A stretch of 53,039 nt of DNA from an uncultured Clostridium sp. (GCA_946540005.1 CAMNHY010000008.1:1-53039); one strand, 5' to 3'. Positions 2,146 to 51,319 are shown, counted from the first letter of the stretch. Notes: generated by a model not told the origin, from the letters alone. Numbers and translations: made by a program.

Positions 2146-2147
2146 TA

Positions 2148-3968: not shown

Positions 3969-3973
3969 TATAT

Positions 3974-4010
3974 AAGCTTATAAACTAATTTCAGTTTATA
4001 GGCTTTTTTT
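3974..4010 (+). terminator. Rho-independent terminator after the ABC exporter operon
   Basis: The arms AAGCTTATAAACT and AGTTTATAGGCTT pair around a short loop and are followed by a run of T. Confidence 0.85.
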
Positions 4011-4049
4011 CAATTTTTAAAGATTATTTAAGTTGTCGAGATATATCAT

Positions 4050-4079
4050 TTGATAATTAATTAATCTTTATTGTATAAT
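4050..4079 (+). promoter_or_regulatory. suf operon promoter
   Basis: TTGATA (4050-4055), an 18-nt spacer and TATAAT (4074-4079) stand just upstream of sufC. Confidence 0.7.
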
Positions 4080-4095
4080 GATTAAGGTTAAAGAC

Positions 4096-4114
4096 ATGAG
4101 ATTTCATATCTCAT
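4096..4114 (+). promoter_or_regulatory. Inverted repeat in the suf leader
   Basis: ATGAGAT and ATCTCAT are a perfect 7-bp inverted repeat with a 5-nt loop, about 10 nt after the expected transcription start and before the sufC ribosome site. It could be a repressor operator or a leader hairpin; the sequence does not decide. Confidence 0.4.
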
Positions 4115-4146
4115 TTTATTATCTATAGATATTGGAGGCTTGTATT

Positions 4147-4959
4147 ATGCAAGATGTATTAGAGATTAAAAATTTGCATGCTAGAGTTGTAGAAAAAGAA
4201 ATATTAAAAGGCGTTAACTTAGTCATGAAAACTGGTGAAGTTCACGCTATAATGGGACCTAATGGTACTGGTAAATCTACATTATCAAGTATTATTATGG
4301 GAAATCCAAAATATGAAATTACTGATGGAGAGATTTTATTTAATGGTAAAAACATTAATGATTTATCTGTTGATGAAAGAGCTAGATTAGGTTTATTTTT
4401 AGCATATCAAACTCCAATTGAGGTTCCTGGTGTAACTAATAGTGATTTCATTCGTCAAGCTATGAAGGCGTGTGGATCTGAATTATCATTATTTAAGTTT
4501 ATTAAAGAATATGATAAGGCTTGTGAAGATTTAGAAATGCCTGAAGGCTTAGCTCAAAGAAATTTAAATCAAGGATTCTCTGGTGGAGAAATGAAGAGAA
4601 ATGAAATTCTTCAAATGAAGATGTTAAAGCCTAAGTTTGCGATTTTAGATGAAATTGATTCAGGACTTGATGTTGACGCACTTCGTATTGTAGGAGAAAA
4701 CGTTTCAAACATGGTTGGACCTAATTTTGGTTGTTTATTAATAACTCATTATGAAAGATTACTTGATTATATTAAACCTGATTTTGTTCATGTAATGATT
4801 AATGGTAGAATTGTTAAAACTGGTGGTCATGAATTAATTGAAAAGATTGATAAAGAAGGTTATCGTTGGGTTAAACGTGAGCTTGGCATTGATATTGAAA
4901 AAACAGAGGAGACACATGCAATACTTGGTGCATGTGCAAGAGCTGGTAAAAATGAATAA
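4147..4959 (+). CDS. sufC: SufC, Fe-S cluster assembly ATPase
   Basis: A 270-residue ABC-type ATPase of the SUF scaffold. It powers conformational change of the SufB-SufD complex during Fe-S cluster assembly in the cytosol. Visible motifs are Walker A GPNGTGKST, signature FSGGEMKR and Walker B ILDEIDSGLD, with the SufC-typical ITHYERLL after it. The ATG at 4147 is chosen because GGAGG (4134-4138) sits at ideal distance; an in-frame TTG at 4132 overlaps that site. It is first in the sufC-D-S-U-B operon, and its end overlaps sufD by 8 nt. Confidence 0.95.
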   Translation: MQDVLEIKNLHARVVEKEILKGVNLVMKTGEVHAIMGPNGTGKSTLSSIIMGNPKYEITDGEILFNGKNINDLSVDERARLGLFLAYQTPIEVPGVTNSDFIRQAMKACGSELSLFKFIKEYDKACEDLEMPEGLAQRNLNQGFSGGEMKRNEILQMKMLKPKFAILDEIDSGLDVDALRIVGENVSNMVGPNFGCLLITHYERLLDYIKPDFVHVMINGRIVKTGGHELIEKIDKEGYRWVKRELGIDIEKTEETHAILGACARAGKNE

Positions 4960-5725
4960 TTATATTATTAAAAATGATGATATTTTAGTTATTGATTCTA
5001 ATGCAGAATATATTATTGAAGGTTCTGGTAATCTTACAATTAATATATTAAAAGATGTTAATACTAAGATATATTTAAAAGAAATATCTGCCAATCTAAC
5101 AATTAATCTAGATGATTATTCAAATCTTGATTTAGTTCAAATAAATTATAATGAAAATAATAATAGTAAGGTTATTAATCTAAAAGAACATTCTAATCTT
5201 AATTTTATAGATCTTACTATCAATAAAGCGCTAGATGATTTAAAAATTAATTTAAACGGATATAAAGCAGTTACAAATGTTAAATATCTTGTGATAAATA
5301 AAAATATTGAATCTAAATTCAATTGTTTAGTAACACATAATGCAAAAGAAACAGAATCAAGTGTTAATAATGTTGGTATAGCACTTGATGCATCAAGCAT
5401 TTGGTTTGATACAGTTGGAAAGATTAATAAAGGTATGGCCAAATCAAATGCTGTTCAATTAGCTAGAGGTATTTTAATTGGACAAAATGCTAGAGTGGTT
5501 AGCCAACCTGTATTAAAAATTGATGAATATGATGTAAAAGCTAACCATGGTACTGCCATTGGTAGAATGAGTGATGATGAATTATTCTATTTAATGAGTA
5601 GAGGATTAAATCGTGAGGAAGCATATAAATTGATCTTATTTGGATTAATTAATCCAATTATAGATGCGATATGGTATAAGGATGAATCAAAGAAATTTTC
5701 TGACGCTGTTATAAATCTAATTTAG
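4952..5725 (+). CDS. sufD: SufD-like scaffold protein (short form)
   Basis: A 257-residue SufB/SufD-family protein. The C-terminal half carries the family's conserved region (ARGILIGQNARVVSQPVL, then ANHGTAIGRMSDDELFYLMS), which is also seen in SufB of this operon. Canonical SufD is over 400 residues, so much of the N-terminal part is missing or strongly diverged. The ATG at 4952 overlaps the sufC end, suggesting translational coupling. By family it forms the SufBCD scaffold with SufB and SufC. Operon position supports the call more than the weakly conserved N-terminus. Confidence 0.85.
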   Translation: MNNYIIKNDDILVIDSNAEYIIEGSGNLTINILKDVNTKIYLKEISANLTINLDDYSNLDLVQINYNENNNSKVINLKEHSNLNFIDLTINKALDDLKINLNGYKAVTNVKYLVINKNIESKFNCLVTHNAKETESSVNNVGIALDASSIWFDTVGKINKGMAKSNAVQLARGILIGQNARVVSQPVLKIDEYDVKANHGTAIGRMSDDELFYLMSRGLNREEAYKLILFGLINPIIDAIWYKDESKKFSDAVINLI

Positions 5726-5734
5726 AGGTATCTT

Positions 5735-6940
5735 ATGAATATAGATGAAATAAAAAAGGATTTTCCTGTATTACAAAACAATCCTAATCTGCATTATCTA
5801 GATAGCGCAGCTTCAAGCTTAAAGCCTAAGTGTGTTATCGATAAAATTGATTATTATTATAATAATTTATCTTGTAATGTTCATAGAGGTGTTTATAGCC
5901 TTTCGTATCGTGCAACAGACATGTATGAAAACGCAAGAAAAATTATTGCAGATTTTATTAATGCGAAAGAAGAAGAAATAGTATTTACAAGAGGTGCATC
6001 TCAATCACTTAATTTAGTTGCACAAAGCTATGGAATGAATTTCATTGAAAAAGATGATGAAATTATTACAAGTGAACTTGAACACCATTCTAATTTCATG
6101 CCTTGGCTAAATGTATGTAATAAGAAAGGGGCAAAGCTTAAATTTGTAGAATTAACAGATGAAGGTAGAATCACTGTTGAAAACTTTAAGAAACAATTAA
6201 GCGACAAAACTAAACTTGTAGCACTTACTTATGTATCAAATGTAATGGGCTATATTACTCCTATTAAAGAAATTATTAAGATTTGTCATGAAAGAGGTAT
6301 TGTTGTATCAGTTGATGCAGCTCAAGCTGTACCTCATATGGCAATTGATGTCAAAGATTTAGATTGTGATTTCTTGTCATTCTCAGGACATAAGATGTGT
6401 GGTCCTTCTGGTATTGGAGTTTTATACGCTAAGTTTGATTTATTAGAGAAAATGCCACCTATTGAATTTGGCGGAGATATGGCTGATGAAGTTTATAAAG
6501 ACAAAATGAGTTATAAGGTTTCTCCATATAAATTTGAAACAGGTACACCTATTATAGACGGTGCGATTGGTCTTGGTGAAGCTTGCAAGTACTTAAAAAA
6601 GATTGGCTTAGATAATATTGCAAAGCATGAAAGCCATTTAGCAAGACTTGCGATAAATGAACTTGAAAAGATTGATGGCGTAACTATTTATAATAAGAGT
6701 GTTGAAACAGGTGTTATCGCATTTAATATTGAAGGAATCCATCCACATGATGCCGCTTCAATATATGATGAAAATGGTGTATGTATTCGTGCCGGACACC
6801 ATTGTGCACAATTAGTTACACGTTGGTTAAACCAAATTTCAACTACACGCGCTTCTTTCTATTTCTATAATACAGAAGAAGATGTATACGCATTAGTTGA
6901 TGCGGTTAAGAAAGCTAAAGAATTCTTTACTATGTTTTAG
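5735..6940 (+). CDS. sufS: SufS, cysteine desulfurase
   Basis: A 401-residue PLP-dependent group II cysteine desulfurase that takes sulfur from cysteine as a persulfide for the SUF scaffold. The PLP lysine is Lys220 in SFSGHKMCGPSG, and the active-site cysteine is Cys357 in CIRAGHHCAQ. Full family length. It lies 9 nt after sufD and 9 nt before sufU, whose product is its usual sulfur acceptor in Firmicutes. It may also supply the ThiI encoded at 29942, because no dedicated desulfurase is adjacent to thiI. Confidence 0.95.
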   Translation: MNIDEIKKDFPVLQNNPNLHYLDSAASSLKPKCVIDKIDYYYNNLSCNVHRGVYSLSYRATDMYENARKIIADFINAKEEEIVFTRGASQSLNLVAQSYGMNFIEKDDEIITSELEHHSNFMPWLNVCNKKGAKLKFVELTDEGRITVENFKKQLSDKTKLVALTYVSNVMGYITPIKEIIKICHERGIVVSVDAAQAVPHMAIDVKDLDCDFLSFSGHKMCGPSGIGVLYAKFDLLEKMPPIEFGGDMADEVYKDKMSYKVSPYKFETGTPIIDGAIGLGEACKYLKKIGLDNIAKHESHLARLAINELEKIDGVTIYNKSVETGVIAFNIEGIHPHDAASIYDENGVCIRAGHHCAQLVTRWLNQISTTRASFYFYNTEEDVYALVDAVKKAKEFFTMF

Positions 6941-37821: not shown

Positions 37822-38442
37822 GTATGACGGGCATGTTATAAATCTAGGGTGAAAGTCCCAAGAGGCATAATTGCCAGTGAACTCGATAGCGACTTGCAAA
37901 GCATAAACCGGTGACGGAGTGTGAAAAGAAGCAATAGCGAAATAGTGGCCCAACGAACAGAAACTTGATAATAAGGCCCATTAGGCGGATGAGTTGACTA
38001 AACACAACAAAGTCCAAAAGGCAATCGTAACCCTAATCGGTAAATCAAGTGGGTAAACTAGGAAAGATTTATGGCTTATCCCGTGAGACCTTGTGAACAA
38101 GTGAAGCCTAGACGTTTTAAAACAACTATAGAAAACTTGGTTAAAAAGTTTGTCACAAGGAGTCAGCAGAGGTCATAGTAGGTAGAAATGCCGAAGGACT
38201 GAATGAAACTGCATATAAAGAAGCAAACAAATCTCTTTGATATGTATGATGAGCCCAAGTAATAGAAACGTATATGATATGAAAAGGCAGTAAAGTGTAA
38301 TGTGAATTCAATGATACTTTGTTAGCAATAAAGAAAGAATATGCAAATTTCAAACCGCCCATTGCCGAACGGCACGATGTGGTGGTGTGAGAGGGGATGA
38401 AGAATAAATATGAAAAATATTTATTCTTCTACTCTACTCGAT
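37822..38442 (+). mobile_element. ORF-less (degenerate) group II intron
   Basis: The 5' end GTATGACGGGCATG resembles group II intron starts (GUGYG). Domain V is recognisable at 38354-38386: ACCGCC/GGTGGT stem and a TGCC-GAAC-GGCA tip. Domain VI is the GAAGAATAAATAT hairpin (38399-38429), and the 3' end reads CTACTCGAT. Domain IV keeps only the first codons of the reverse transcriptase (38187-38259; NAEGLNETAYKEANKSL, then a stop and an out-of-frame DMYDEPK). The maturase is thus deleted, and the intron could splice or move only with help in trans. It lies immediately 3' of a terminator, the usual target of class C introns. Confidence 0.85.
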
Positions 38443-38557: not shown

Positions 38558-39214
38558 ATGGAAAGAATTTTATATCATGGTAGTGAATTTATAATAAAAG
38601 AGCCAGAATATCTAAAAGGGAATATTCACAATGATTATGGGCTTGGCTTTTATTGCACAACTATTAAAGGACTTGCAAAAGAATGGGCTGCAAAAAGAAG
38701 TGGTAAAGGATATATCAATAAATATAGTTTAAGAGATGATAGATTAAAAATTCTTGATTTGACGAAGCCTCCATTTAATGATGTTTTATATTGGGTTAGT
38801 TTATTAATGCATAATAGAGAATTATCAAGTAGCTTAAGAAATAATTATCCAAGAGAATTAAAATATCTTGAAGACAAATATTTACTTAAAGTTAGTGATT
38901 ATGATGTTGTAATTGGATATCGTGCTGATGATAGTTATTTCCATTTTCCTGAAGCTTTTGTTAGAAGTGAAATAACACTTGAATCATTGAATTCGATTTT
39001 TACAGCAGGAGATTTAGGTAAACAATATGTTCTAATATCTGAAAGAGCGTTCAAACTGATAAAGTTTATTGATTATCAAGAAGTGTCTGAAAAAAGCCAA
39101 GAGGATTATTATAAAAGAAAAAGTGATGCAGATAAGATCTTTACTGATTTATTAGAAGCTGATAGGTATAAAAAAGGAATTAGACTTAGAGATTTGGTGA
39201 TGGATAATGAATGA
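38558..39214 (+). CDS. DUF3990 protein, ADP-ribosyltransferase-like (putative toxin)
   Basis: 218 residues. The N-terminal ~170 residues match DUF3990: ILYHGSEFIIKEP, NDYGLGFYCTT and LAKEWAAKR in order, with a later FVRSEITLES. By family the fold is related to ADP-ribosyltransferases and is found as toxins in bacterial toxin-antitoxin cassettes. No clear Shine-Dalgarno precedes the ATG, hinting at low translation. The next gene overlaps by 8 nt. Toxin function is inferred from family and context. Confidence 0.75.
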   Translation: MERILYHGSEFIIKEPEYLKGNIHNDYGLGFYCTTIKGLAKEWAAKRSGKGYINKYSLRDDRLKILDLTKPPFNDVLYWVSLLMHNRELSSSLRNNYPRELKYLEDKYLLKVSDYDVVIGYRADDSYFHFPEAFVRSEITLESLNSIFTAGDLGKQYVLISERAFKLIKFIDYQEVSEKSQEDYYKRKSDADKIFTDLLEADRYKKGIRLRDLVMDNE

Positions 39215-39803
39215 TTATGAATTAGATAATTTAAGAGAAACTTTTTCTAGGTTATTTGTATTAGCAGTTAGAAATAAGATTAATTTTAAATCATTTACAA
39301 ATATGCTTTCAAATAGCTCTTTTATAGATGCAATTGAAAAAGATAAATATAATGAATTATTTAATAAGCCAATAGAACAGTTATTATTTTCTATTACTGG
39401 CTATGAACCAAAAGAAGATAATAGCTATGGTATATACAATGATGCATATTGGTGCGGTCAAAACTATTTTGATTTACATATTAAAACAAAAAAGTCATTT
39501 GTGTACCTTTTCTTAAAATTACCTTTTGAAGAAATGATGAATATATATTCTATTTATCACGAAATGGATTTTTCGTCATTGGTTGATTACTTCCATAAAA
39601 AGGAAAACGAAAAAACAATATTAAGAATACTATGTGAAGAAAAACGATGTTCCTTAAATGATTTATGTAAAGCTACTTCATTAAGCTTAAATACGTTGAG
39701 AAAGTATAATTCTAGCGATGATATTCTATATAATGCTTCATTTCAAAATATTGCAAAATTAATTCAGTATTTTAATGTAAGTTATCTTTTGTTTGTGAGG
39801 TAA
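39207..39803 (+). CDS. Partner of the DUF3990 protein with C-terminal HTH-like region (putative antitoxin)
   Basis: 198 residues. I do not recognise the N-terminal ~140 residues. The last ~55 look like a helix-turn-helix (CSLNDLCKATSLSLNTLRKY), usable for binding the palindrome at 38506. Overlap with the DUF3990 gene (ATGA-type, 8 nt) implies coupled synthesis. Antitoxin role is inference; it could also be a plain regulator. Confidence 0.55.
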   Translation: MNDYELDNLRETFSRLFVLAVRNKINFKSFTNMLSNSSFIDAIEKDKYNELFNKPIEQLLFSITGYEPKEDNSYGIYNDAYWCGQNYFDLHIKTKKSFVYLFLKLPFEEMMNIYSIYHEMDFSSLVDYFHKKENEKTILRILCEEKRCSLNDLCKATSLSLNTLRKYNSSDDILYNASFQNIAKLIQYFNVSYLLFVR

Positions 39804-39807
39804 TAAT

Positions 39808-40623
39808 ATGATTAAAAAAGTTGAAATATTAAAAGATTATACTGAATTTGTTGATTATTTTTATGCTGAAGGTGATTTTATTGATCCGCACATTATTAGT
39901 GAAGAAGATAAAATAAATTTACTAACACAAAAAAGAGAAACAAGAGAATCTCTTGTGATTTTATCAGGCAATAAAGTGATAGGTGCATTCGTTTTGCTAG
40001 TGTTACCAGATGAATTATATATTGAAATGCTCCTTGGATTATCAAAAGAAGAGAAAGCATATTTAGAATTGTTTGAGTACCTAAAAAGCAATTATAAAGG
40101 GTATAACTGCGATTTTGTTTTTAATGCTAAGAATTATTTATTGAAAAACATACTAAAAGGATATGATGCTACATTCGAAACTGAACAAATGAAAATGATA
40201 TATAGTCCTAAAAAAATAGATATCTCATTTGATGAAATAAAGCCTTTAGAAGATAAGTATTGTGATGAATATCTAAATATTCATGAAAAAGATACTTATT
40301 GGAGAGGGGAGAAAGTAATAAAAGCTAAAGATAGGTTTAGTGTTTATGTGGCATTAGATAATGATAAAGTGATTGGATACATTGATGTTACTAATTGTTT
40401 TAAAGAAAATGAACCATATGATATTTACGTTAAAGAAGAATATAGGAATAAAGGATATGGAAAGAAACTATTAGCAAAAGCACTATATGAGAATAAAGAT
40501 AATGATATGATGCTTTTAGTAGATATTGATAATATCGCAGCTATAAAAGTATATAAAAAATGTGGATTTATTGAAGATAAATATCCACATTATTTAACTG
40601 CACATATCAGTAAATTATTGTAG
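39808..40623 (+). CDS. GNAT-family N-acetyltransferase
   Basis: 271 residues. The C-terminal GNAT domain has the acetyl-CoA loop EEYRNKGYGKKLLAKAL and the closing AAIKVYKKCGFIEDK. The N-terminal ~130 residues resemble a diverged second GNAT-like unit. It follows the HTH-type gene by 4 nt, so all three are probably one operon. Substrate unknown; possibly a protein, antibiotic or an additional TA component. Confidence 0.8.
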   Translation: MIKKVEILKDYTEFVDYFYAEGDFIDPHIISEEDKINLLTQKRETRESLVILSGNKVIGAFVLLVLPDELYIEMLLGLSKEEKAYLELFEYLKSNYKGYNCDFVFNAKNYLLKNILKGYDATFETEQMKMIYSPKKIDISFDEIKPLEDKYCDEYLNIHEKDTYWRGEKVIKAKDRFSVYVALDNDKVIGYIDVTNCFKENEPYDIYVKEEYRNKGYGKKLLAKALYENKDNDMMLLVDIDNIAAIKVYKKCGFIEDKYPHYLTAHISKLL

Positions 40624-41045: not shown

Positions 41046-42257
41046 ATGGAAAAATTGTTTCAATTCATTTTGGATAATTATATAAGTGCTCCAAAACTAG
41101 TTAGTAATATTGATGATGTATATAAAGTTATAAAGCATACCTTACCTTTTGAAATTAAAAACTTTCTAAATGATAACAAATTAATTGTTAGTGGCTCTAT
41201 GGGACAAGGTAGAAAATCAGATTGTCCATGGATATCAATCATGAATGCTGATATTACTAGAACAACTCAAAGCGGTTTATATATTGTCTTTTTATTTAAA
41301 AAGGATATGACAGGTTTTTATTTAACTTTAAATCAAGGAATTAAAAACTTTAACGATTTATTTAAAAATAAGAAGTATGAATATGCTACAAAAGTGACGA
41401 ATTATTTTAAAGAAGAAATTATCGAAACATCATTTTCAAAGTCAGAAATTCATCTGGGAAATTTCAAAAAAGGTGAGAGACCATATGGTTATGAAAAAAC
41501 TACTATTTTATCAAAGTATTATCCTTCAAACGAATTCAGTGACCTTATTTTGAAAAATGATTTGATTGAGTTAACTAAAATTTATAGTTATATTTCTAAA
41601 CATTTTACAACGACAAGTTATAATGATGTAATTAAACAAATATTGGCATCAGATTTACCGATAATGGTTGATGGCGATATCGCTATTAATGAAATTAAAA
41701 ATTTTGTGGATCCTAATGATGAAAATCCTTTTGGCTTTAGAAGAAAATTAATTGAAAAGAAACCGTATGTAGATATAACTAAAAGCTTTAGTTCCTTAAC
41801 TAAACCGAAAATTGGAAAGATTGATTATATAAAAAAGGCTTATAAAGATATGAAAGCAGGTTTACTAGGTGAATCTTTAGTTATGGATTATGAAAAAGAA
41901 CGTTTAATAGCTTTAGAAAGAGAAGATCTTGCTTCAAAAGTTGATTGGGTAGAAAGATATGCTGACGGATATGGTTATGATATTTTATCTTTTGATGTTG
42001 ATGAAAATGGAAAAGAGAAAAAAATGTTGATTGAAGTCAAATCGACTTCATCACGTGTAGATACTGAATTCTATATAAGCAGGAATGAAGTTGAAACCAG
42101 TGTTAAGTATAAGAATAATTATTGTGTATATAGATTATATGATGTATATGCGGAATCTCCAAAATTTTATGAAGCATATGGTGAAGTATCAAAAAACTTT
42201 ATTTTAGATCCAGTTACTTTTATGGCGAGATATAAATTTCCAGAAAAGGCCTTTTAA
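41046..42257 (+). CDS. McrB N-terminal domain (DUF3578) fused to DUF3883 nuclease-like domain
   Basis: 403 residues. The N-terminal ~190 match the McrB-type reader domain: GSMGQGRKSDCPWISI, then GLYIVFLFKKDM and YLTLNQG. The C-terminal ~130 are DUF3883: GESLVMDYEKERL, then DGYGYDILSF and LIEVKST. Asp312, Glu330 and Lys332 form a PD-(D/E)xK-type site. By family the first part senses modified DNA and the second cleaves, giving a type IV-like restriction protein. It has AGAGGAA before the ATG and its own terminator, so it is a separate unit from the operon downstream. Confidence 0.82.
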   Translation: MEKLFQFILDNYISAPKLVSNIDDVYKVIKHTLPFEIKNFLNDNKLIVSGSMGQGRKSDCPWISIMNADITRTTQSGLYIVFLFKKDMTGFYLTLNQGIKNFNDLFKNKKYEYATKVTNYFKEEIIETSFSKSEIHLGNFKKGERPYGYEKTTILSKYYPSNEFSDLILKNDLIELTKIYSYISKHFTTTSYNDVIKQILASDLPIMVDGDIAINEIKNFVDPNDENPFGFRRKLIEKKPYVDITKSFSSLTKPKIGKIDYIKKAYKDMKAGLLGESLVMDYEKERLIALEREDLASKVDWVERYADGYGYDILSFDVDENGKEKKMLIEVKSTSSRVDTEFYISRNEVETSVKYKNNYCVYRLYDVYAESPKFYEAYGEVSKNFILDPVTFMARYKFPEKAF

Positions 42258-42300
42258 ATCTTTTATTTTATAATTAAAATTTTAATAAGTTTGTAAAAAT

Positions 42301-42329
42301 AAGGTCAATTTTTGTTGGCCTTTTTTTAT
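42301..42329 (+). terminator. Terminator after the McrB-N/DUF3883 gene
   Basis: AAGGTCAA (42301-42308) pairs with TTGGCCTT (42315-42322), followed by T5. Confidence 0.8.
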
Positions 42330-42352
42330 AAAAAGCTCACTTTTTTATTGCA

Positions 42353-42429
42353 ATATTTTTGAAATATTACAAAATTGTATCAAAAACATACAAAAAATGT
42401 TTCAAAAATGTTGACATATTTTTGAAATA
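42353..42429. promoter_or_regulatory. Operator-like repeats at the defence operon promoter
   Basis: The 14-mer ATATTTTTGAAATA occurs exactly twice (42353-42366 and 42416-42429). The second copy forms a perfect 10-bp inverted repeat with TTTCAAAAAT (42400-42409), and the -35 hexamer lies in the 8-nt space between the arms. Confidence 0.65.
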
Positions 42430-42439
42430 GTTATATTCT
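42411..42439 (+). promoter_or_regulatory. Promoter of the six-gene defence operon
   Basis: TTGACA (42411-42416), a 17-nt spacer and TATTCT (42434-42439). Confidence 0.7.
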
Positions 42440-42463
42440 ATAGAAAAAGGATCGGTGATAATA

Positions 42464-42685
42464 ATGGAAGAAACTAAGCGAGAAAAATTTATAAGATTAG
42501 CAGAAAGCAGAATGAATAACGTTTTAAAACAAATTGAATTACTAGGGAATTTATCTAATACGAGAGCGTATGAGTATTCTCAATCTGATATAGATAAAAT
42601 GATTAAGACATTAAAAGATGCGTTAGTAGATTTAGAACATTCATTTAAACCAGATAAAAAGAGCAAAAAATTTAGTTTAAAATAG
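42464..42685 (+). CDS. Small helical protein, first gene of the defence operon
   Basis: 73 residues, highly charged and predicted helical (REKFIRLAESRMNNVLKQIE, then YSQSDIDKMIKTLKDALVDL). Small proteins beginning KREKFIRLAE-R and containing LGNLSN often sit beside methylases and restriction genes in Firmicutes; their role is unknown. ATG 42464 is preceded by AAGGATCGGTGAT. The next gene starts 9 nt after its stop. Confidence 0.7.
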   Translation: MEETKREKFIRLAESRMNNVLKQIELLGNLSNTRAYEYSQSDIDKMIKTLKDALVDLEHSFKPDKKSKKFSLK

Positions 42686-42694
42686 GTGCGGTAT

Positions 42695-44977
42695 ATGATT
42701 GATCTTGATCGTTTGTCTCTCTATAATTTTACAATACTAAAAAAATGGTCTAAACAATTTGAATGCTCTGGTCTTTCAAAGTTATCTGATATTTATAATT
42801 ATTCTGTTATCGATTTTTCTAAAAAAATGAATTTGGGATTACAAGATTCTTTAAGCTTATTCAAATCTTTACAAGAAATTAAGAATAAGCTTGTTAATAA
42901 TACTATTTTTGAAATTTACGATGGTGACTTGATTAAAAAAAATAATGAAGAGAGTAAAAATGATATAGCATGTTTGAATTTATCGGTTCGGTCTTATAAT
43001 GCTTTAAAGCTTAATTGCATTAATACTGTTAATGATCTACTTAAACTTGAGATTAACGATTTAATTAGGTTTAGAAATTTAGGGAAAAAAAGTATTAAAG
43101 AAATTATTTCTGTAATTAATATGCTAAAAGAAGGTAGTGGAATAGAAATCGATAATAAAGTCGACTATAAAACATATTTGACTATTGACAATCTTAATTT
43201 ATCACGTAGAACGTATAATTGTTTAATGCATTCCGGATTAATTAACGTTGATGACTTTATTAATTATACTAAATATGATTTTTATAATATCGAAAACATG
43301 GGGGAAAAGAGTGTTGATGAAATATACAATATTCTCAATAATTTAAAAAAAGAATATAATAATGGAACAAATTTTGATTATAAAAATAAGATTGTTTCTT
43401 TAAAAAAAGATGTTTCTGATTATATTTATCATAATATAAAATTGAGTAAATTTAATATATCAGAAATTGACTATGATTTATTAATGAGATTAGGAATTAC
43501 ATCAAATAATACTTTTTATGAGTTATTTAAATCTATTGATAATGCAATTAATGAATCGAATCTAAATATTACTGAAGATGAATTTAAGGCTTTGTATGAT
43601 TTTATATATAAGTACTTGCCTATACAGGAAAAATTTATTGGAATAATTGATATTACTGATGATGATAAAATCATCCTATATGATAGATGTCATGGTAAAA
43701 CTTTAGAAGAAATTGGAAAAACTTATAATGTCTCGAGAGAAAGAATTAGACAAAAAGAAAGTAGTATAAAAAAGAAAATAAAGTGTTCATTTTCGTCAAA
43801 TAAATTAGAGAGATTTCTTTTGAATGATTATTTTTATTTGGATTCTAAAACCGGTTTGCCAGATGAACTTTATGCATTATATTTTAATATACTTGATGAA
43901 CTTTTAGATGTTACTAAAATTGAAATAAACGAGCAATTTTTTTATGTATCGAATACACTTTTTAATAAATCAGTTGATATGGTAGATAGATTAAAAGATT
44001 TGATTGATAAAAATGGATTTGTGTTTGAATATGAATTTGATTATTCATCAATGGATAATTCATTGTTTAGTTATCTTTTAGACCAAAAAAATATTTATTT
44101 TAATGGAAAAACTTTTTATTTAAAAAGAAGCGATTCACATAAGGTTGTTGACTATATTAAGAGATTTGGTAGTATTGATTTATCTAGTTCAAATTTAGGT
44201 AAAATATGCGAAGAGTTACGAGAATATTTAGATATTTTGAATTTTGATAGACACAATATAATATCTTCTGTTACAAGGAAAGGTGTTATATCAATTGGGG
44301 AATCAAAATATTGTTTATTGGACTCTATTCCTAAAATAGACAAAATTACTATTAATAAAATTTTAAAATTCATAGAAAAGGGAAGAATCTGTGATTGTTC
44401 TGAAATATTAAATGAATTTAAGAATGAATTACCGGCTAATTTTACACCAGAAACATTATATTTTTCCATTAAGCAAATGTATCCTAATGAATATAATTAT
44501 GGTGGAACTAATCTTGTTATTTCACTTAAAGAAATGGCTGCAAGTAAAGCTTCTTCAATATACAACTTTTTGTCACAGCAAAGTGAACCAATTTCTAATA
44601 CAATAATTATGAATTATTTTAGGGTGGATAAGACAGCACTGAGTGTTATTGACTCGCAAAATACTGATATATTTTATATTGACGACGTGAATCTATGGTT
44701 ATACAGCAAAATGCCAGATATAGATTATATACTAGACAAAATGAAATTGTATATTTGTAGCAAAAATTCATTTTTTGTAACAGATTTTTACAAATATATG
44801 AGAAAAGAATATGAAGATATTTTACAAAGAAATTTTATTACAAGTTTGGAAAGATTTTCACGTTTAATAAAATCCAAGTGTAGTGATTTAATTAAAAATT
44901 ATGAATATGACAGATTTAAGAAATACTATTTTAAAAAACAAATAATTTCGGATTCTGGCTTTGATTTTGATTTTTAG
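42695..44977 (+). CDS. RNA-polymerase-like protein: alpha-CTD repeats plus sigma region 4 plus winged helices
   Basis: 760 residues. Two segments match the RNA polymerase alpha C-terminal domain: residues ~93-146 (LNLSVRSYNALKLNCINTVN, then FRNLGKKSIKEI) and ~164-218 (LNLSRRTYNCLMHSG, then ENMGEKSVDEI). A degenerate third may precede them (1-65). Residues ~325-365 resemble sigma-70 region 4 (GKTLEEIGKTYNVSRERIRQ). The remaining ~390 residues are helical with winged-helix-like parts near the end. It has no catalytic motif, so it is probably a DNA-binding regulator or targeting subunit. ATG 42695 follows AGGTG; GTG 42686 is less likely. Confidence 0.78.
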   Translation: MIDLDRLSLYNFTILKKWSKQFECSGLSKLSDIYNYSVIDFSKKMNLGLQDSLSLFKSLQEIKNKLVNNTIFEIYDGDLIKKNNEESKNDIACLNLSVRSYNALKLNCINTVNDLLKLEINDLIRFRNLGKKSIKEIISVINMLKEGSGIEIDNKVDYKTYLTIDNLNLSRRTYNCLMHSGLINVDDFINYTKYDFYNIENMGEKSVDEIYNILNNLKKEYNNGTNFDYKNKIVSLKKDVSDYIYHNIKLSKFNISEIDYDLLMRLGITSNNTFYELFKSIDNAINESNLNITEDEFKALYDFIYKYLPIQEKFIGIIDITDDDKIILYDRCHGKTLEEIGKTYNVSRERIRQKESSIKKKIKCSFSSNKLERFLLNDYFYLDSKTGLPDELYALYFNILDELLDVTKIEINEQFFYVSNTLFNKSVDMVDRLKDLIDKNGFVFEYEFDYSSMDNSLFSYLLDQKNIYFNGKTFYLKRSDSHKVVDYIKRFGSIDLSSSNLGKICEELREYLDILNFDRHNIISSVTRKGVISIGESKYCLLDSIPKIDKITINKILKFIEKGRICDCSEILNEFKNELPANFTPETLYFSIKQMYPNEYNYGGTNLVISLKEMAASKASSIYNFLSQQSEPISNTIIMNYFRVDKTALSVIDSQNTDIFYIDDVNLWLYSKMPDIDYILDKMKLYICSKNSFFVTDFYKYMRKEYEDILQRNFITSLERFSRLIKSKCSDLIKNYEYDRFKKYYFKKQIISDSGFDFDF

Positions 44978-44989
44978 AGGAGGTAAAAA

Positions 44990-46921
44990 ATGGAAAAAAA
45001 ATGGTTTTTTAGTTTTGATAATGCAGTAGGTGAAGATTTTAGTGATCATGGAACTGAAACATTTAAAAACAACAATGATGGCGCTGAAAAATTTAAAAAA
45101 TTTGCTAGAGAAATGGTTCAAAATTCTATTGATGTTAAAAACGAAAAAATTGATGAGCCTTTAGTTGTTGAATTTAGTTTATTTGAAGTTGATAAAAAAG
45201 ATTTACCTGATTTTGCTGATTTAGCAGAACATATTCAAGGAACAGTTGATCTATGTTTACAAAAGAATAAGCTAAATAATGCTTATAATACTTCAAGAAA
45301 AGAATTGCAAATATTAAAAAAAGATAAATTCAGAATATTAAAAATTTCTGATTATAATACGGTTGGAATTAAAGGTTCGACTGATTTAGATGCTGAAAAT
45401 AGTAGCTGGAAAGGCCTTGTATATAATGATGGTGATTCTGTCAAGTCAAGCAGTGATTCGCTAGGAAGCCATGGTTTAGGAAAAGGTGCCGCTTTTGCAA
45501 TGTCAAATTTAAGAACTGTATTTTACAATACAAAAGACATTGATGGAAATCGTGCATTAGAGGGTGTTTCTAGACAATATGTAAGTTCTATTAATGGTAA
45601 AAAGAAATTCTATAAAGGATATTATGGAAAGTATGAAAATGACAATATATATCCATTTGTTAACGACGAATTAAAGGAATTTTCTGACATTTTTGATAGA
45701 TCTGCTCCTGGATCTGACATTTATGTTTTAGAACCTGATGTTTCTTATTTATCAGATGAACATATAAAATGGTATCTTATTGAATCTGTTGTATGTAATT
45801 TCTTTGTTGCAATTCGAGATGGAGCGTTGGAATTAAAGGTAAATGGTACAGAAGTTAATCAATCGAGACTTGATAGTATTATTGTTATGCTCAATAATTT
45901 TTATGAAAAGAATAATCTTGAAAAGAGTGATGAATTAATTGCAACAGAACAATATCTTAAGGCTTTAGATTGTGGCGATATTATTGAAGAAGAACTTAAA
46001 GAATATGGAAATATAAAACTATGGCTATATAAAGATTCTAATACTAAATGGAAAAATGTCGCTATTATACGTAAGAATGGTATGTTCATTAAAAATATTG
46101 ATGTAAAATATGCTAATCAAAAATTTGCTGGTGTTGTAATTGTTCAAGGCCTAGAAGGAGTTGAATTTTTAAAAAGTATTGAAGATCCTAACCATATGGA
46201 TTTTGATCCAAGCAGAGATACTCCTGAAAAATATGGCTCTACAGATGAAAAGCAACGAAGATTAAATTGCTTTTATGATTGGATAAGAAATCATGCTAAA
46301 AATTTTACTAAAATAATTTCTGAAGATAAATTTACATTGTCTGGAATGGAAGATTATATTCAAATGCCTAGCGAGGAAGAAAAAAAATATAATCCTAAGA
46401 ATATTGAGCCTACAGTTATAAAAGTGAAACCTTCTAAACCTTCTAAATCTAGGGTCGCGAAGAAAACGACTGTTGATAATTCAGAAGATGGAACAACACT
46501 TGTTTCACCAGCCGGTGGTGAAACTCCAGGTTCACATATTCCAAATCCTAATCCAAAAGAAACAAATAATCCAAAAGAAGATGAAAATTCTACTAGAAAG
46601 AGCTTTGTTAAATCTTATGTTGCATCTTTTGAATTAGGCCCTGTGATTAAGCATAATGACAATGATTCAGTATTAGTATTTGAAATTACAGAAACAGATA
46701 AAGATTTCAAATTAAAACTTTGTGCTGTTGATGAAGATGGCAACGAGAATGGATTATTACCAAACATTATTTATGCATATGATGTAAACAATGGCGTAGA
46801 ATTAGAATGTAAAAGGCACATTGTATCTGGGTTAAAATGCCAAGGGGTTATGAAAATTATTATTAAATTTGATGAACCAATTGTTTCATGCGTTAAACCA
46901 ATTATTTACTGGGAGGAATAA
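44990..46921 (+). CDS. GHKL (MORC/MutL-type) ATPase
   Basis: 643 residues. The N-terminal Bergerat-fold ATPase has the N-box FAREMVQNSID (Glu41, Asn45), the D-x-G-type box LKISDYNTVG (Asp121) and the lid GSHGLGKGAAFAM (159-171), a MORC-like form. A transducer-like region follows to ~450, then a Pro/Lys-rich linker (~470-545) and a ~95-residue beta-rich C-terminal domain. MORC-like ATPases are known in bacterial restriction clusters and probably clamp or loop DNA when ATP-bound. Strong AGAGGAGGT site. Confidence 0.82.
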   Translation: MEKKWFFSFDNAVGEDFSDHGTETFKNNNDGAEKFKKFAREMVQNSIDVKNEKIDEPLVVEFSLFEVDKKDLPDFADLAEHIQGTVDLCLQKNKLNNAYNTSRKELQILKKDKFRILKISDYNTVGIKGSTDLDAENSSWKGLVYNDGDSVKSSSDSLGSHGLGKGAAFAMSNLRTVFYNTKDIDGNRALEGVSRQYVSSINGKKKFYKGYYGKYENDNIYPFVNDELKEFSDIFDRSAPGSDIYVLEPDVSYLSDEHIKWYLIESVVCNFFVAIRDGALELKVNGTEVNQSRLDSIIVMLNNFYEKNNLEKSDELIATEQYLKALDCGDIIEEELKEYGNIKLWLYKDSNTKWKNVAIIRKNGMFIKNIDVKYANQKFAGVVIVQGLEGVEFLKSIEDPNHMDFDPSRDTPEKYGSTDEKQRRLNCFYDWIRNHAKNFTKIISEDKFTLSGMEDYIQMPSEEEKKYNPKNIEPTVIKVKPSKPSKSRVAKKTTVDNSEDGTTLVSPAGGETPGSHIPNPNPKETNNPKEDENSTRKSFVKSYVASFELGPVIKHNDNDSVLVFEITETDKDFKLKLCAVDEDGNENGLLPNIIYAYDVNNGVELECKRHIVSGLKCQGVMKIIIKFDEPIVSCVKPIIYWEE

Positions 46922-46923
46922 TT

Positions 46924-47796
46924 ATGAAATCAATAATTGAAAGAAATTTTCCATATCCAATTTTATTAGAAAATGGTGGGGATTATAATGATGCACGTTT
47001 CAATGTTGAATGTAAAACTAGATTATCTGATGATAGTAAAGAATTGATAATGAGTTTTAATTTTATAATTGAATGTCCTACAATAAGGCGATTAATTGAA
47101 GAAGGTAAAGCATTCCCTTTTGTAAATGTGTCACAAAGAACATATCGTAAAAGTGGACCTTTAATTAATGGAAATGAATTTAAAATTCCTATGGACTGGC
47201 TTTCTCCTAATCACAACTTAGAAGTGATGCCTATGCTTGTTGCTAAATCCGATTTTGATTTTGATTACGATGAAAGTATGAATTTGGTTTTTTCTTATTT
47301 TGATGATTCTTTTAAAATTAAGAGAGGTCAAATTTTGGGATATGGTAACTTTTTAACTATTGAATTGCCAACAAATTCAAAGATTGGAAGTATTTTTACT
47401 ATATCTAAATTAAAGAAAAAAGAAGACATTGATAGAGGATTACCATATATTATATCTTTAGATACTCATGCAATTGATATTAAAGTCCTTCCTGATATAT
47501 ATGATTCTTTTTTTAAATTAAAAGACACTGATTCATCATATAGAAAACTTTTGTATTCAACTTTCGTTTATCCTGCAGTTCAAATGGCAATATTGAATAT
47601 TTTTCAAGATTATGATGGAGTAAAGGATTATAAATGGTGTATAGCTATTACGAATAAAATCAGTAAACTTAAAGGAATTAATTTTGAAACAAAAATAGAT
47701 TTTACATCTGAAGAAATAATTGAGTATACTAATTTAGTACTCGAAACTTTATTACAAGATGCTTTTAATGATATTGATAAAGGAGGAGAAGAATAA
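46924..47796 (+). CDS. Unknown protein of the defence operon
   Basis: 290 residues, no membrane segment or signal peptide. Mixed alpha/beta sequence with a beta-rich N-terminal half (NVECKTRLSDDSKELIMSFN, QRTYRKSGPLI) and a helical end (YPAVQMAILNIFQDY). I do not recognise the family. GGGAGGAA lies inside the GHKL gene's last codons, and the stop overlaps the next ATG (TAATG), so it is made together with its neighbours and is probably a complex subunit. Confidence 0.65.
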   Translation: MKSIIERNFPYPILLENGGDYNDARFNVECKTRLSDDSKELIMSFNFIIECPTIRRLIEEGKAFPFVNVSQRTYRKSGPLINGNEFKIPMDWLSPNHNLEVMPMLVAKSDFDFDYDESMNLVFSYFDDSFKIKRGQILGYGNFLTIELPTNSKIGSIFTISKLKKKEDIDRGLPYIISLDTHAIDIKVLPDIYDSFFKLKDTDSSYRKLLYSTFVYPAVQMAILNIFQDYDGVKDYKWCIAITNKISKLKGINFETKIDFTSEEIIEYTNLVLETLLQDAFNDIDKGGEE

Positions 47797-48575
47797 TGAT
47801 TTTAAAAATGTATACTGATTATCTTGTTAATGATTTAAAAACAAATAGGATTAATAATATTAATTTGTATGATACAAATAAACACTCTTTTGTTTCTTCT
47901 TTATACAATAATTATGATCTTGAATTATATAATATGGAAAAAGAAGTTGATTATCCTGAGTTGGATTTAACTATTGCAACAAAGGAAAATGGTAAAAATC
48001 AATGGGAAATAGATTTTAATAATGCTGTTAAATTACATAAAGAATTTGTATTAAAATATGATGTTCCTTTAAGTATTTTGAGTGATGAAAGATTTATCAC
48101 TTATTTAACACATGATATATATTATGAATATATGATATGCAGATGGCCAGTTAATGGGAAGGAAAATCGTTTAAATCAAAAATATTTTTTACCTACAGGC
48201 GGACAAGGTTTTACTAGAAATATGTTTATGAGACTATTCTGGTATGCTTATATAACCTATGATTCTTCTCTAGCAGATCCATATGAATTAACAAGAATTG
48301 CATTTGAATATGCAGACCCAGTTAATCAAATAATGGAAAGAAAATATGGAAAAAGCGAAAGAATCGTTAAAGCAGCTCTTCGTGCTATAAAAAATATAGG
48401 TTCTAAAGAATTGAATCAAAAGAGGACAATTTATGGTAAAAGAATAAATAATATTTTAAGTTTATATGCACTTGATGTTTTAAAAGAAAATGAATTGGTT
48501 TCTCTTTTTGAAAAAGAAATAAAAGGAATTGTTGAATCAGATATTGTTGACAGCTCTTTAGTCGAGGAGGAATAA
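47796..48575 (+). CDS. DUF6339-like protein of the defence operon
   Basis: 259 residues, soluble. The central part (FNNAVKLHKEFVLKYDVPLS, DERFITYLTHDIYYEYM, then LPTGGQGFTRNMFMRLFWYA) resembles DUF6339 proteins, which occur in accessory and defence regions; the assignment is from memory of the pattern and moderate. It is coupled on both sides (TAATG start; next start 1 nt after the stop). AAAGGAGGAG precedes the ATG. Function unknown. Confidence 0.62.
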   Translation: MILKMYTDYLVNDLKTNRINNINLYDTNKHSFVSSLYNNYDLELYNMEKEVDYPELDLTIATKENGKNQWEIDFNNAVKLHKEFVLKYDVPLSILSDERFITYLTHDIYYEYMICRWPVNGKENRLNQKYFLPTGGQGFTRNMFMRLFWYAYITYDSSLADPYELTRIAFEYADPVNQIMERKYGKSERIVKAALRAIKNIGSKELNQKRTIYGKRINNILSLYALDVLKENELVSLFEKEIKGIVESDIVDSSLVEEE

Positions 48576-48576
48576 C

Positions 48577-49992
48577 GTGTATAATAATGCTTTATTTGGC
48601 TTTATGGTACAAAGCTCAATTTGCAAAAAATATGGGATTTTTCCTACAAACGAAAGATTAATTAATACTTTTAAATCTAATTATGAGCCTGGATTAAGAA
48701 GCTATATCGATGAAATTATTGATGATGTTTTTTTAAATTTAGATTTAAAACCTATCAAGTGTACAACATTTGATATAGATGAAGATGGAATAGAAATACC
48801 ATATAATTTCATATTATCTAATAATCAGACATTATCAATTAGGACAAACATTAATGGATGTAAAGTAGCACCAAGAGTTGTTGGCCAAGCTGGTTTTGAA
48901 AAATTAAATTATTATTTTGCTGATATTTATGGAAAATGTATAGTTAACCAAGATGATATAAAACATTTAATGATTAATCAAATAAATGAAGCGTTACCAA
49001 TATTTATAGATAAATTATTTGATGCAGATTATATTCTATGGATTTTCCAAGATAAAAAGGAAAATAACAAGTTTTCTTATCAATTACTTAAAGGAAACTC
49101 AATTGTTGATATTGACTATTCATTAGATAATTTTACTTTTACGAAAAATTATTTTGACTGGAACGAGAGTACCACATTAAAATATAAAGGGAAATCAATT
49201 GCTGAAATCCAAGTTCATAAAAATCGTTCATTTAAGTTTAGATTTATTATGAATAATTTTATCTCTATGATTTCAGTGTTTGAGAAAAATAATGAAACTT
49301 TAGGAATAACTGCAGAGAAGACAATTTGTGATATTTTTGGTATAAAGTACCCTAACAGTTTTTTTGATAGAAGTTCACCTGATTTAGAATATCAAATAGA
49401 AGATACTATAAGAGAAGCCTTTTGTTATCTTCCTAAACCTATTAAACATTGCGGTAGCGAGCCTGGAACTCGTGGTGGAACAAGTAAAAGTCCATATGAC
49501 TTCTTATTAGACGGTAATAAAACATTATCTTTAAAAACAAACATTGGGAAAATGGTCTGCCCACCTGAAATTGGACAGCCTAATAACACAACATGCTATT
49601 TTTATTTTAAGGATTTGTTGAGTACTAATAAAGTAGATAAAAAAATATTTAAAAAGTTAGTTTTTGATAAGATTGATTTAATGATTCCACGCTACCTATT
49701 ACATTTATTTGAATCTGATTATTTATTAAGAATTTATGCAGATAAAGAATCTTTTGCAAAGGGGGCTTCACTTTATCAGTTTGATATATGCCCAAAAGAT
49801 TATGGTTCTGATTTTAGATGGGAAAAAAAGAAATTTTCATTTTCAAAAAAATCTATTACTGAATGGAATGAAAGCAATACTGTATATTATGATGGGATAA
49901 CTCTTGGAGAGTTCCAGGTTCATAACAATAGAAATTGCTTTAAATTTAGATTTAATTTTGAAAATCTACTTAGTATTTTACGTAAAAAATAA
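48577..49992 (+). CDS. Restriction-nuclease-like protein with internal duplication
   Basis: 471 residues made of two homologous halves (about 1-233 and 242-470). Matching landmarks: IPYNFIL/LSIRTN versus SPYDFLL/LSLKTN; VVGQ versus EIGQ; FDADYILWIF versus FESDYLLRIY; DWNEST versus EWNESN; and AEIQVHKNR versus GEFQVHNNR, each ending in FKFRF. The D-x-S-x-K pattern of half 2 (Asp308, Lys320) looks like a PD-(D/E)xK site; in half 1 it is Asn77 and Arg89. Position directly before a C5 methylase suggests the restriction enzyme of the pair. GTG start after GAGGAGG. Nuclease assignment is inference. Confidence 0.65.
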   Translation: MYNNALFGFMVQSSICKKYGIFPTNERLINTFKSNYEPGLRSYIDEIIDDVFLNLDLKPIKCTTFDIDEDGIEIPYNFILSNNQTLSIRTNINGCKVAPRVVGQAGFEKLNYYFADIYGKCIVNQDDIKHLMINQINEALPIFIDKLFDADYILWIFQDKKENNKFSYQLLKGNSIVDIDYSLDNFTFTKNYFDWNESTTLKYKGKSIAEIQVHKNRSFKFRFIMNNFISMISVFEKNNETLGITAEKTICDIFGIKYPNSFFDRSSPDLEYQIEDTIREAFCYLPKPIKHCGSEPGTRGGTSKSPYDFLLDGNKTLSLKTNIGKMVCPPEIGQPNNTTCYFYFKDLLSTNKVDKKIFKKLVFDKIDLMIPRYLLHLFESDYLLRIYADKESFAKGASLYQFDICPKDYGSDFRWEKKKFSFSKKSITEWNESNTVYYDGITLGEFQVHNNRNCFKFRFNFENLLSILRKK

Positions 49993-50001
49993 TACTTTAT
50001 A

Positions 50002-50030
50002 TTGACCTTTTAAATAAAAACATGTATAAT
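50002..50030 (+). promoter_or_regulatory. Promoter of the C5 methyltransferase gene
   Basis: TTGACC (50002-50007), a 17-nt spacer and TATAAT (50025-50030), giving the methylase expression independent of the nuclease operon. Confidence 0.75.
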
Positions 50031-50062
50031 GGACATTGAGTAAACATGCAAAGTGGACATTG
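50030..50062. promoter_or_regulatory. Direct repeat TGGACATTG in the methyltransferase leader
   Basis: TGGACATTG occurs at 50030-50038 and 50054-50062 (24-nt pitch), between the -10 box and the ribosome site, a position suited to repression by the methylase's own HTH. Confidence 0.5.
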
Positions 50063-50074
50063 GAGGTTTTATTT

Positions 50075-51319
50075 ATGTCAATTATCACAATTGCTGAAGC
50101 TGCAGAACTATCAAAAAAAAGTCAAAAAACAATAAGAAGAGCAGTTGCTGCTGGCAAATTAAAAAGTACTAAAATTCAAAATAAAACACGTATTGATAAG
50201 CGTGATTTTGATGAATGGCTTCAAAAGGGATGCTGTAGTACAGAAGAGCAAGATAAAAATTGCATACGAAATGATGAAGTTAATTGGATTGATATCTCTG
50301 ATGAATGGAAAAAAGATGGTTGGAAGAATAAAAAAGATAGAAACGGATACAATTTTATTGATTTATTCTCTGGAGCAGGCGGATTAAGTTGTGGTATGGT
50401 TATGGCAGGATTTAATCCAATTGCTAGCGTAGAAATTATGCCTCAAGCAGTTGAAACATATAAGTATAACTTTATTGAACAAAAAAATTTTAAAGAAGAA
50501 GTAGAAACACGAGATATTAGAACCAAAGAAGTAAAAGAAAAATTATATGAATCTGTAAAAAATAAAAAAGTTGATGTAATTGTTGGTGGATTCCCTTGCC
50601 AAGGTTTTAGTATGGCAGGATATCGTGTTGTTGATGATCCTCGTAATAGTTTATATAAAGAAATGAAGGAAATAGTTGAAAAGCTTCAACCTGAAGTAGT
50701 TGTTATGGAAAATGTTGAAGGACTTCGTTCTATGCTAAATGGTAAAGTTGAAGAAATGATTATTGATGATTATAAGAAGATAGGATATGAAATTAATCTT
50801 ACAGTTCTTAATAGTGCAAACTATGGAGTTCCACAATTTAGAAAAAGAGTGATATTTATTGGTAATAGGGTTGGTAAAAAGAATTATCATCCAAAAGCTC
50901 TTTATAATGAAAGTAATTATGTTACTTTAGGAGAAGCTATCAGTAAATTTATGTACATACCTGAAAACAAAGAGATTAACCATCAATTTACTAGACATAC
51001 TGAAGCTATGAAAAAAAGATTAGCTGCTGTCCCTGAAGGGAAAAGCTTATATAAAAACTATTCAGATTCTTGGAAGAAATCTCCATGGGATAAACCGTCA
51101 TGCACTATAAAGGAAAATCATGGTGGTACAAACATTCATCCTAAATTAGCTCGCTGTATGACCGCAAGAGAATTGGCTGCTTTGCAATCTTTCCCAGATG
51201 ATTTTATCTTTAAAGGAACAAAAAAATGGCAACTTGTTCAAATAGGTAATGCGGTACCTCCTTTGCTTGGAAAAGCTGTTGGGCTTTCTGTTAAAAAGAT
51301 GTTAGATAGCGATAAATAA
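50075..51319 (+). CDS. C5 cytosine DNA methyltransferase with N-terminal HTH
   Basis: 414 residues. Residues ~1-52 form an excisionase/MerR-like helix-turn-helix (ITIAEAAELSKKSQKTIRRA, then TRIDKRDFDEWL). From ~92 the Dcm-type catalytic domain follows: DLFSGAGGL, catalytic Cys175 in GGFPCQGFS, MENVEGLRS, and the C-terminal QIGNAVPPLLG. The recognition region (~310-350) contains NHQFTRHTEAM and ENHGGTNIH; the target site cannot be read from it. It should protect host DNA from the upstream nuclease. ATG 50075 follows TTGGAGG. HTH fusion suggests autoregulation. Confidence 0.92.
   Translation: MSIITIAEAAELSKKSQKTIRRAVAAGKLKSTKIQNKTRIDKRDFDEWLQKGCCSTEEQDKNCIRNDEVNWIDISDEWKKDGWKNKKDRNGYNFIDLFSGAGGLSCGMVMAGFNPIASVEIMPQAVETYKYNFIEQKNFKEEVETRDIRTKEVKEKLYESVKNKKVDVIVGGFPCQGFSMAGYRVVDDPRNSLYKEMKEIVEKLQPEVVVMENVEGLRSMLNGKVEEMIIDDYKKIGYEINLTVLNSANYGVPQFRKRVIFIGNRVGKKNYHPKALYNESNYVTLGEAISKFMYIPENKEINHQFTRHTEAMKKRLAAVPEGKSLYKNYSDSWKKSPWDKPSCTIKENHGGTNIHPKLARCMTARELAALQSFPDDFIFKGTKKWQLVQIGNAVPPLLGKAVGLSVKKMLDSDK

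Follow-up and report, generated by a model that had tools for sequence, protein, structure and literature searches.

A putative GHKL ATPase module beside DNA methylases: a candidate methylation-gated restriction locus in an uncultured Clostridium

Background

The locus considered here occupies positions 41046-51319 of a 53,039-nucleotide stretch of DNA (the window) from an uncultured Clostridium sp. (GCA_946540005.1 CAMNHY010000008.1:1-53039). It comprises eight open reading frames (ORFs), designated A to H, which follow one another in that order on the plus strand. A first-pass annotation had proposed an undescribed, distinct multi-subunit restriction system consisting of a GHKL ATPase (D), an RNA-polymerase-like protein (C), a DUF6339-like protein (F), a duplicated nuclease (G), a C5 methylase with a helix-turn-helix (HTH) (H) and further small or flanking genes. 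The genome assembly carrying the locus is 75.7% complete, a figure that bounds every absence stated below for the window genome.

Several described systems resemble the locus in part. According to Iyer, Abhiman and Aravind 2008 (PMC2292703), the paraMORC2 GHKL ATPases sit in restriction-modification (RM) loci and are marked by an ExxxH motif. PADLOC catalogues the unvalidated defence candidate PDC-M33 (models PDLC04582-04587); a search of the paper collection used here for DUF6339 and PDC-M33 found none. The MZA system is composed of the sigma-like MzaA, the MutL-like MzaB, Z1 and AIPR, names that are also carried by NCBIfam. Type II RM systems and the MutL-MutH and MutL-Vsr pairs offer further points of comparison.

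Results and discussion

Comparison of the locus with described systems

Analysis with the PADLOC models demonstrated that D, E and F match PDC-M33A (8e-97), PDC-M33B (7e-34) and PDC-M33C (7e-35), respectively, as adjacent genes in the same order, which places the three in PDC-M33. No PDC-M33 model matches B, C, or the methylase or nuclease partners. F additionally matches DUF6339 (7e-31, Pfam). D shares with paraMORC2 the GHKL ATP-binding motifs, a conserved downstream ExxxH, a bias towards Gram-positive bacteria, and neighbourhoods containing methylase, Vsr and restriction-endonuclease-fold genes, as set out in PMC2292703. The text of that paper stresses superfamily II (SFII) helicases, whose linkage to paraMORC2 loci is common but not universal; a Pfam scan of the window operon detected no such helicase. 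Nor does the text describe B, E, F or the alpha-CTD/sigma-4 protein (C). The claim of an undescribed system is therefore upheld in that no named published counterpart was found, but it must be narrowed, as D-E-F is PDC-M33 and D fits paraMORC2.

Like MZA, the locus places a protein bearing sigma-70 region 4 (sigma-4) next to a MutL/GHKL-type ATPase, and C matches MzaA (NCBIfam) over its sigma-4 part only (1.8e-6). Unlike MZA, it has a methylase and extra repeats of the RNA polymerase alpha C-terminal domain (alpha-CTD). The MzaB model (NF041932) matches nothing in the window genome, not even D, and no Z1 or AIPR gene was found there, which rules out membership in MZA and agrees with the earlier remark that the locus lacks Z1. 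As in type II RM systems, G matches a type II restriction-enzyme model, H is a methylase with C5 motifs, and the pair also occurs alone; the differences are that G is a tandem duplication with a degenerate-looking half and that it here ends the GHKL operon.

Conservation of the D-E-F core

In a class sample of 345 good genomes (193 genera), D was present in 24 genomes and 20 genera. Larger stretches were taken for 20 D matches, and 66 further loci were added from named genomes (four-sequence profile scan); removal of four known duplicates gave the set of 83 loci used below, which are not independent of one another. D is followed by E and then F in 79 of the 83 loci, with median D-E and E-F spacings of -14 and -4 nucleotides (nt). 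The maps of three exceptions (L061, L107 and L115) end inside or just past D, and the fourth (L116) has two unlabelled genes after D. The core occurs in about ten phyla, being found in Bacillota, Mycoplasmatota, Pseudomonadota, Bacteroidota, Balneolota, Chlorobiota, Spirochaetota, Cyanobacteriota and Elusimicrobiota as well as in several Patescibacteria lineages. Conservation of order in unrelated genomes was thus confirmed for D-E-F, while co-occurrence of all six operon genes was not, most loci being without C and G (a C-family gene in 13 loci, G in 4). B belongs to no Pfam family, and a homologue lies just upstream of the core in 43/83 loci. Five loci from the window's own family (L044-L047 and L050) share a flanking gene set after D-E-F, as if these copies occupied one conserved chromosomal place.

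Pairing with unrelated DNA methylases

The core stands beside DNA methylases far more often than methylases occur further out. In 60/83 loci a methylase of the C5 or D12 type is encoded no more than three genes away from the core; among the 55 loci with full flanks, 42 have one at this distance, versus 4 at four to eight genes. The C5 and D12 labels missed some methylases, namely an HsdM (L183), a Mod-like protein (L034) and a C5 enzyme located one gene further out (L036). D-E-F pairs with many unrelated DNA methylases: the partners include several C5 subfamilies, D12 adenine methylases, HsdM and a type III Mod-like protein. The tree requires 13 or more changes of the plain C5 label on well-supported branches, which indicates repeated gain or loss of the pairing. 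In L034 the Mod-like gene (recognised from its start) adjoins a type III Res gene and is followed by B, a sigma-4 protein, D, E and F. In L183, on Ligilactobacillus salivarius plasmid pMP1046A, HsdS, HsdM and an 80-amino-acid (aa) gene precede D-E-F, and the annotated stretch contains no HsdR. The L183 run continues with genes for an MmeI-type enzyme and a DEAD/DEAH helicase, and a site-specific integrase adjoins.

We propose, with a probability of about 0.5, that B-D-E-F together with C forms a methylation-gated restriction helper beside the RM pair G-H. H would mark the cell's own sites by methylation. C would place the complex on DNA, its alpha-CTD modules on the A/T-rich minor groove together with its sigma-4 helix-turn-helix, and E and F would be scaffold subunits that hold the complex together. 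The MutL/MORC-like D would spend ATP on a conformational change, a DNA clamp or loop-making. Unmethylated sites would license loading, and the loaded complex would activate or recruit the partner nuclease, which would be G here and a Vsr, MutH-type or other type II enzyme elsewhere. The activation of MutH by MutL provides an analogy for such nuclease switching. What we infer is complex formation, methylation sensing, activation of cutting, the defence function and a promoter role for C.

Three points weigh against this proposal. In a non-exhaustive scan of the neighbours, many loci with a methylase showed no recognised nuclease up to three genes away, so the core may act without one. No C5 or D12 methylase was detected near D-E-F in the five-locus cluster from the window's own family. 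Moreover, the GHKL assignment of D is based on motifs, weak Pfam matches and an N-box alignment to MutL. The first two points also favour the main rival, which we regard as possible if somewhat unlikely: B-(C)-D-E-F would be an autonomous anti-phage system embedded in RM loci, acting for example when RM fails or is inhibited, and using neither the methylation nor the RM nuclease. PADLOC lists PDC-M33 as a stand-alone candidate, the five-locus cluster is among several loci without a detected C5 or D12 methylase, and the embedding of defence systems inside RM loci is a known pattern (PMC12255303). The methylation-gated helper is nevertheless preferred, as the core is linked to methylases in general, which belong to several unrelated kinds and lie one to three genes away, and plain clustering in islands is not expected to fall so sharply at four to eight genes.

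Nuclease partners and the repair alternative

The nuclease partners vary, comprising MutH-like proteins, other REase_II families and a Vsr-like gene beside the core in 16/83 loci; in the one locus tested, the Vsr identity was confirmed by model (4e-20). Relatives of the locus therefore resemble MutL-MutH and MutL-Vsr in pairing a GHKL ATPase with such nucleases, and D has MutL-like motifs. C5 methylation is mutagenic. These observations could be accommodated by a repair accessory, in which a MutL-like complex and Vsr-type nicking would mend T:G mismatches or breaks caused by the linked methylase or nuclease. We consider this very unlikely, because the adenine methylases (D12 and HsdM) that pair with the core create no T:G mismatches and most loci are without Vsr. 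In addition, D is not MutL: in its own genome the MutL family TIGR00585 gives only a weak match elsewhere (contig C1) and none to D, which rules out MutL orthology.

Motifs and models of the core proteins

Alignment of 70 homologues showed that the GHKL N, G1 and G2 motifs of D are conserved, with E41/Q44/N45/D48, D121/T124/G126 and G159/G162/G164/K165 invariant or nearly so. Downstream lies E398xxxH402, in which E398 and H402 are invariant. HATPase_c_3 (Pfam) sees the family weakly (2/70 members, best 0.0016), and the D profile aligns with MutL over little more than the N-box. From these motifs, matches and alignment, D appears to be a GHKL-type, paraMORC2-like ATPase. A second support for the GHKL assignment comes from locus L192, which holds B (193-408), a GHKL protein (1036-3228), a C-like protein (3228-4988) and a C5 methylase fragment (5003-5794) at the contig end. 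Its GHKL protein belongs to a different family from D and passes the HATPase_c_3 cut-off (1.5e-6), so that a recognised GHKL ATPase stands beside B, C and a C5 methylase. This ATPase and a 208-aa gene occupy the position of D-E-F, as though B and C had exchanged one GHKL ATPase for another.

None of D, E and F had a usable match when its sequence was searched against the PDB. The AlphaFold2 model of E (predicted local distance difference test, pLDDT, 90.7; predicted template modelling score, pTM, 0.64) has beta-sandwich-type domains, weakly fibronectin III/cytokine-receptor-like, and a helical C-terminus; its top Foldseek matches (template modelling score ~0.25) were used for domain type alone. 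The model of F (pLDDT 90.3, pTM 0.88) is nearly all-helical, with no PDB fold match below E=1. Neither model matched a nuclease-like fold, which is weak negative evidence against E or F as nucleases.

The alpha-CTD/sigma-4 protein C

Pfam analysis of C identified RNA_pol_A_CTD in two stretches (1e-32) and Sigma70_r4 (3e-7). The alpha-CTD repeats lie at residues 97-157 and 167-217 and sigma region 4 at 339-378, followed by a long C-terminal half without an assigned domain. The Pfam and NCBIfam scans reported neither a sigma region 2 nor an RNA polymerase alpha N-terminal domain. The earlier term "RNA-polymerase-like" does not hold as worded and should give way to naming the two kinds of DNA-reading domain, alpha-CTD and sigma-4. 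Pairwise alignment to E. coli RpoA and RpoD showed that both window repeats keep R265, N268, N294, G296, K298, S299 and E302 (RpoA numbering) and that sigma region 4 keeps R584, E585, R586, I587, R588 and Q589 (RpoD numbering), positions known as promoter contacts of RNA polymerase. Among ten C-family proteins with an aligned sigma-4, R584, E585, R586, R588 and Q589 are kept, with V at position 587 in L034 and L039. Relatives conserve the alpha-CTD residues less strictly: some repeats in L052 and L054, for example, have I, R or N in place of K298. No alpha-CTD is seen in the C-family proteins of L034 and L048. Because the repeats and sigma-4 of the window protein retain the promoter-contacting residues, C looks like a free-standing promoter reader.

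A C profile run over 395 genomes gave six matches: four adjoin D, a fifth is L192, and the sixth (L193) is weak, 416 aa long and in another gene context; a plasmid search found no C relatives. The window D falls in a clade of six (SH-like approximate likelihood ratio test 99), all with C. Two alpha-CTDs and sigma-4 were detected by Pfam in L052 to L055, and likewise in L072, where C is split over two frames and where the split D lies outside the tree. This C-bearing subtype is the new part of the finding; the remainder is partly catalogued.

Sigma-4 and alpha-CTD modules are promoter readers and the operon has its own palindromic promoter region, so C might only regulate operon transcription, the other proteins having nothing to do with promoter binding. 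We give this little credence. Within the C-type clade C measures 728-763 aa, with a long C-terminal half that aligns across relatives, and it sits in the operon body; most D-E-F loci manage without it. MzaA, by its NCBIfam name a sigma-like subunit of MZA, also suggests that a protein of this kind can be part of the machine itself. A more far-reaching possibility, which we judge unlikely, is that C, acting without RNA polymerase through alpha-CTDs on UP elements and sigma-4 on -35 boxes, brings the MORC-like ATPase to unmethylated incoming promoters. Silencing or cutting of foreign genes would then take place where they start, with the linked methylase as the gate, in a bacterial counterpart of MORC silencing.

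G and H as a separable pair

G matches PADLOC REase_II in two stretches (5e-16), and its homologues match the model more strongly (5e-22 and 5e-27). Its halves are 33% identical (E=1e-30), confirming the true tandem duplication that had been noticed at first reading. The C-half carries YDF or VDF and then LSLKT in the aligned set, and this motif is intact in the window protein (YDF..LSLKT), whereas N77 replaces D in the N-half of 4/4 aligned sequences. G is therefore predicted to combine one working and one degenerate half, and it would nick or need a partner. H matches DNA_methylase (1.5e-69) and HTH_17 (8e-12) in Pfam and has the C5 motifs PCQ and ENV.

G and an H-type methylase occur without B-F in L179 and L180, and split over two contigs of one genome in L181/L182. 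L052 has the order G-H-C-D-E-F, and B can be read in the DNA ahead of C; L072 has a divergent G with a C-type core, and in the window G is the last gene of the GHKL operon. Given the pair alone and these varied arrangements, G-H is probably a type II RM pair, with cleavage by G predicted, separate from a B-F module that stands alongside. One indivisible six-gene system is ruled out by the occurrence of G-H alone and by the majority of core loci, which are without C or G. What stands of the proposed distinct multi-subunit restriction system is hence the conserved core beside methylases, while G-H is separable, A lies outside, and C and G are dispensed with in most loci. In L051 (4883-5608), the closest relative, a TAA follows the N-half of G (241 aa) and the frame reaches the end of the contig, so that G is perhaps split or broken in that relative.

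The element CATG...RTGGACA was found just upstream of 9/9 compared H-type genes (window, L052, L053, L054, L055, L072, L179, L180 and L182), where it overlaps or adjoins the -10 region. It occurs at HTH-C5 methylase promoters with and without the GHKL module. The window has the exact form once and a one-mismatch copy 24 nt further on. Other HTH-bearing C5 methylases control their own expression, and the element is likely an autoregulatory operator through which H is self-controlled via its HTH.

Layout of the locus and neighbouring genes

B to G form a tight operon (42464-49992), and H lies outside it with its own promoter-like site (Table 1). The spacings are 0 nt (B-C), 12 nt (C-D), 2 nt (D-E), an overlap of 1 nt (E-F, TAATG), 1 nt (F-G) and 82 nt (G-H); the first-pass gene order and tight B-G coupling (-1 to 12 nt) were borne out, and the Pfam and PADLOC domains fit the first-pass assignments. 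Three transcription units are plausible, as a terminator-like hairpin (42301-42322) separates A from B and H has a sigma-70-like promoter at 50002-50030 (11/12 match), although shuffled sequence contains such promoter matches at least as often as the region does. The H start first placed at TTG 50036 is better moved to ATG 50075, which has GGAGG upstream. A/T-rich inverted repeats, judged by eye, precede the operon at the same place in the C-clade relatives L054, L055 and L072.

Table 1 Features of the locus (window coordinates)
Feature	Position	Strand	Basis
A: MrcB_N + NOV_C (DUF3883-type), 403 aa	41046..42257	+	Pfam, PADLOC
A/T-rich inverted repeats and sigma-70-like promoter of the B-G operon	42340..42440	+	TTGACA 42411, TATTCT ending 42439
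B: 73-aa protein, no Pfam family; core companion	42464..42685	+	homologues upstream of core
C: 763 aa, alpha-CTD x2 + sigma-70 region 4	42686..44977	+	Pfam
D: putative GHKL-type ATPase, PDC-M33A / paraMORC2-like	44990..46921	+	PADLOC, motifs
E: PDC-M33B	46924..47796	+	PADLOC, AlphaFold2 model
F: DUF6339 = PDC-M33C	47796..48575	+	Pfam, PADLOC, model
G: tandem-duplicated type II restriction-enzyme-like protein	48577..49992	+	PADLOC, alignment of halves
Promoter, operator-like repeats (50021-50035, 50045-50059) and ribosome-binding site of H	50002..50066	+	
H: HTH_17 + C5-cytosine DNA methyltransferase	50075..51319	+	Pfam, motifs, ribosome-binding site

The flanking gene A had been read at first as an McrB-N/DUF3883 nuclease beside the operon. 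It contains MrcB_N (9e-38) and NOV_C (5e-17) by Pfam and matches the PADLOC candidate PDC-S36 (2.6e-38). The only A homologue in the fetched neighbourhoods is A itself. Since the hairpin separates A from the operon and no relative of it appears in those neighbourhoods, A is excluded from the system; it is only a neighbour, a separate stand-alone candidate defence-type gene adjoining the operon and outside the conserved unit.

Further upstream, a ribozyme-like stretch (37840-38400) contains a Group II intron RNA match (RF01998, 38133-38199, 43.2 bits). The window gene calls include no reverse-transcriptase-sized ORF alongside, so this may be an ORF-less or remnant intron. A DUF3990 protein gene, directly followed by genes for an HTH protein and a GNAT acetyltransferase (38558-40623), looks, with the HTH gene, like a toxin-antitoxin type pair.

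Conclusions

A catalogued and apparently unpublished defence candidate is a conserved MutL/MORC-like module, and its link to methylation is directly testable. The autonomous embedded defence system remains the main rival to the methylation-gated helper, with repair and plain regulation less likely. Should C target promoters, gene starts would guide restriction in addition to short recognition words, and the eukaryotic MORC silencing ATPases would gain a tractable bacterial relative.
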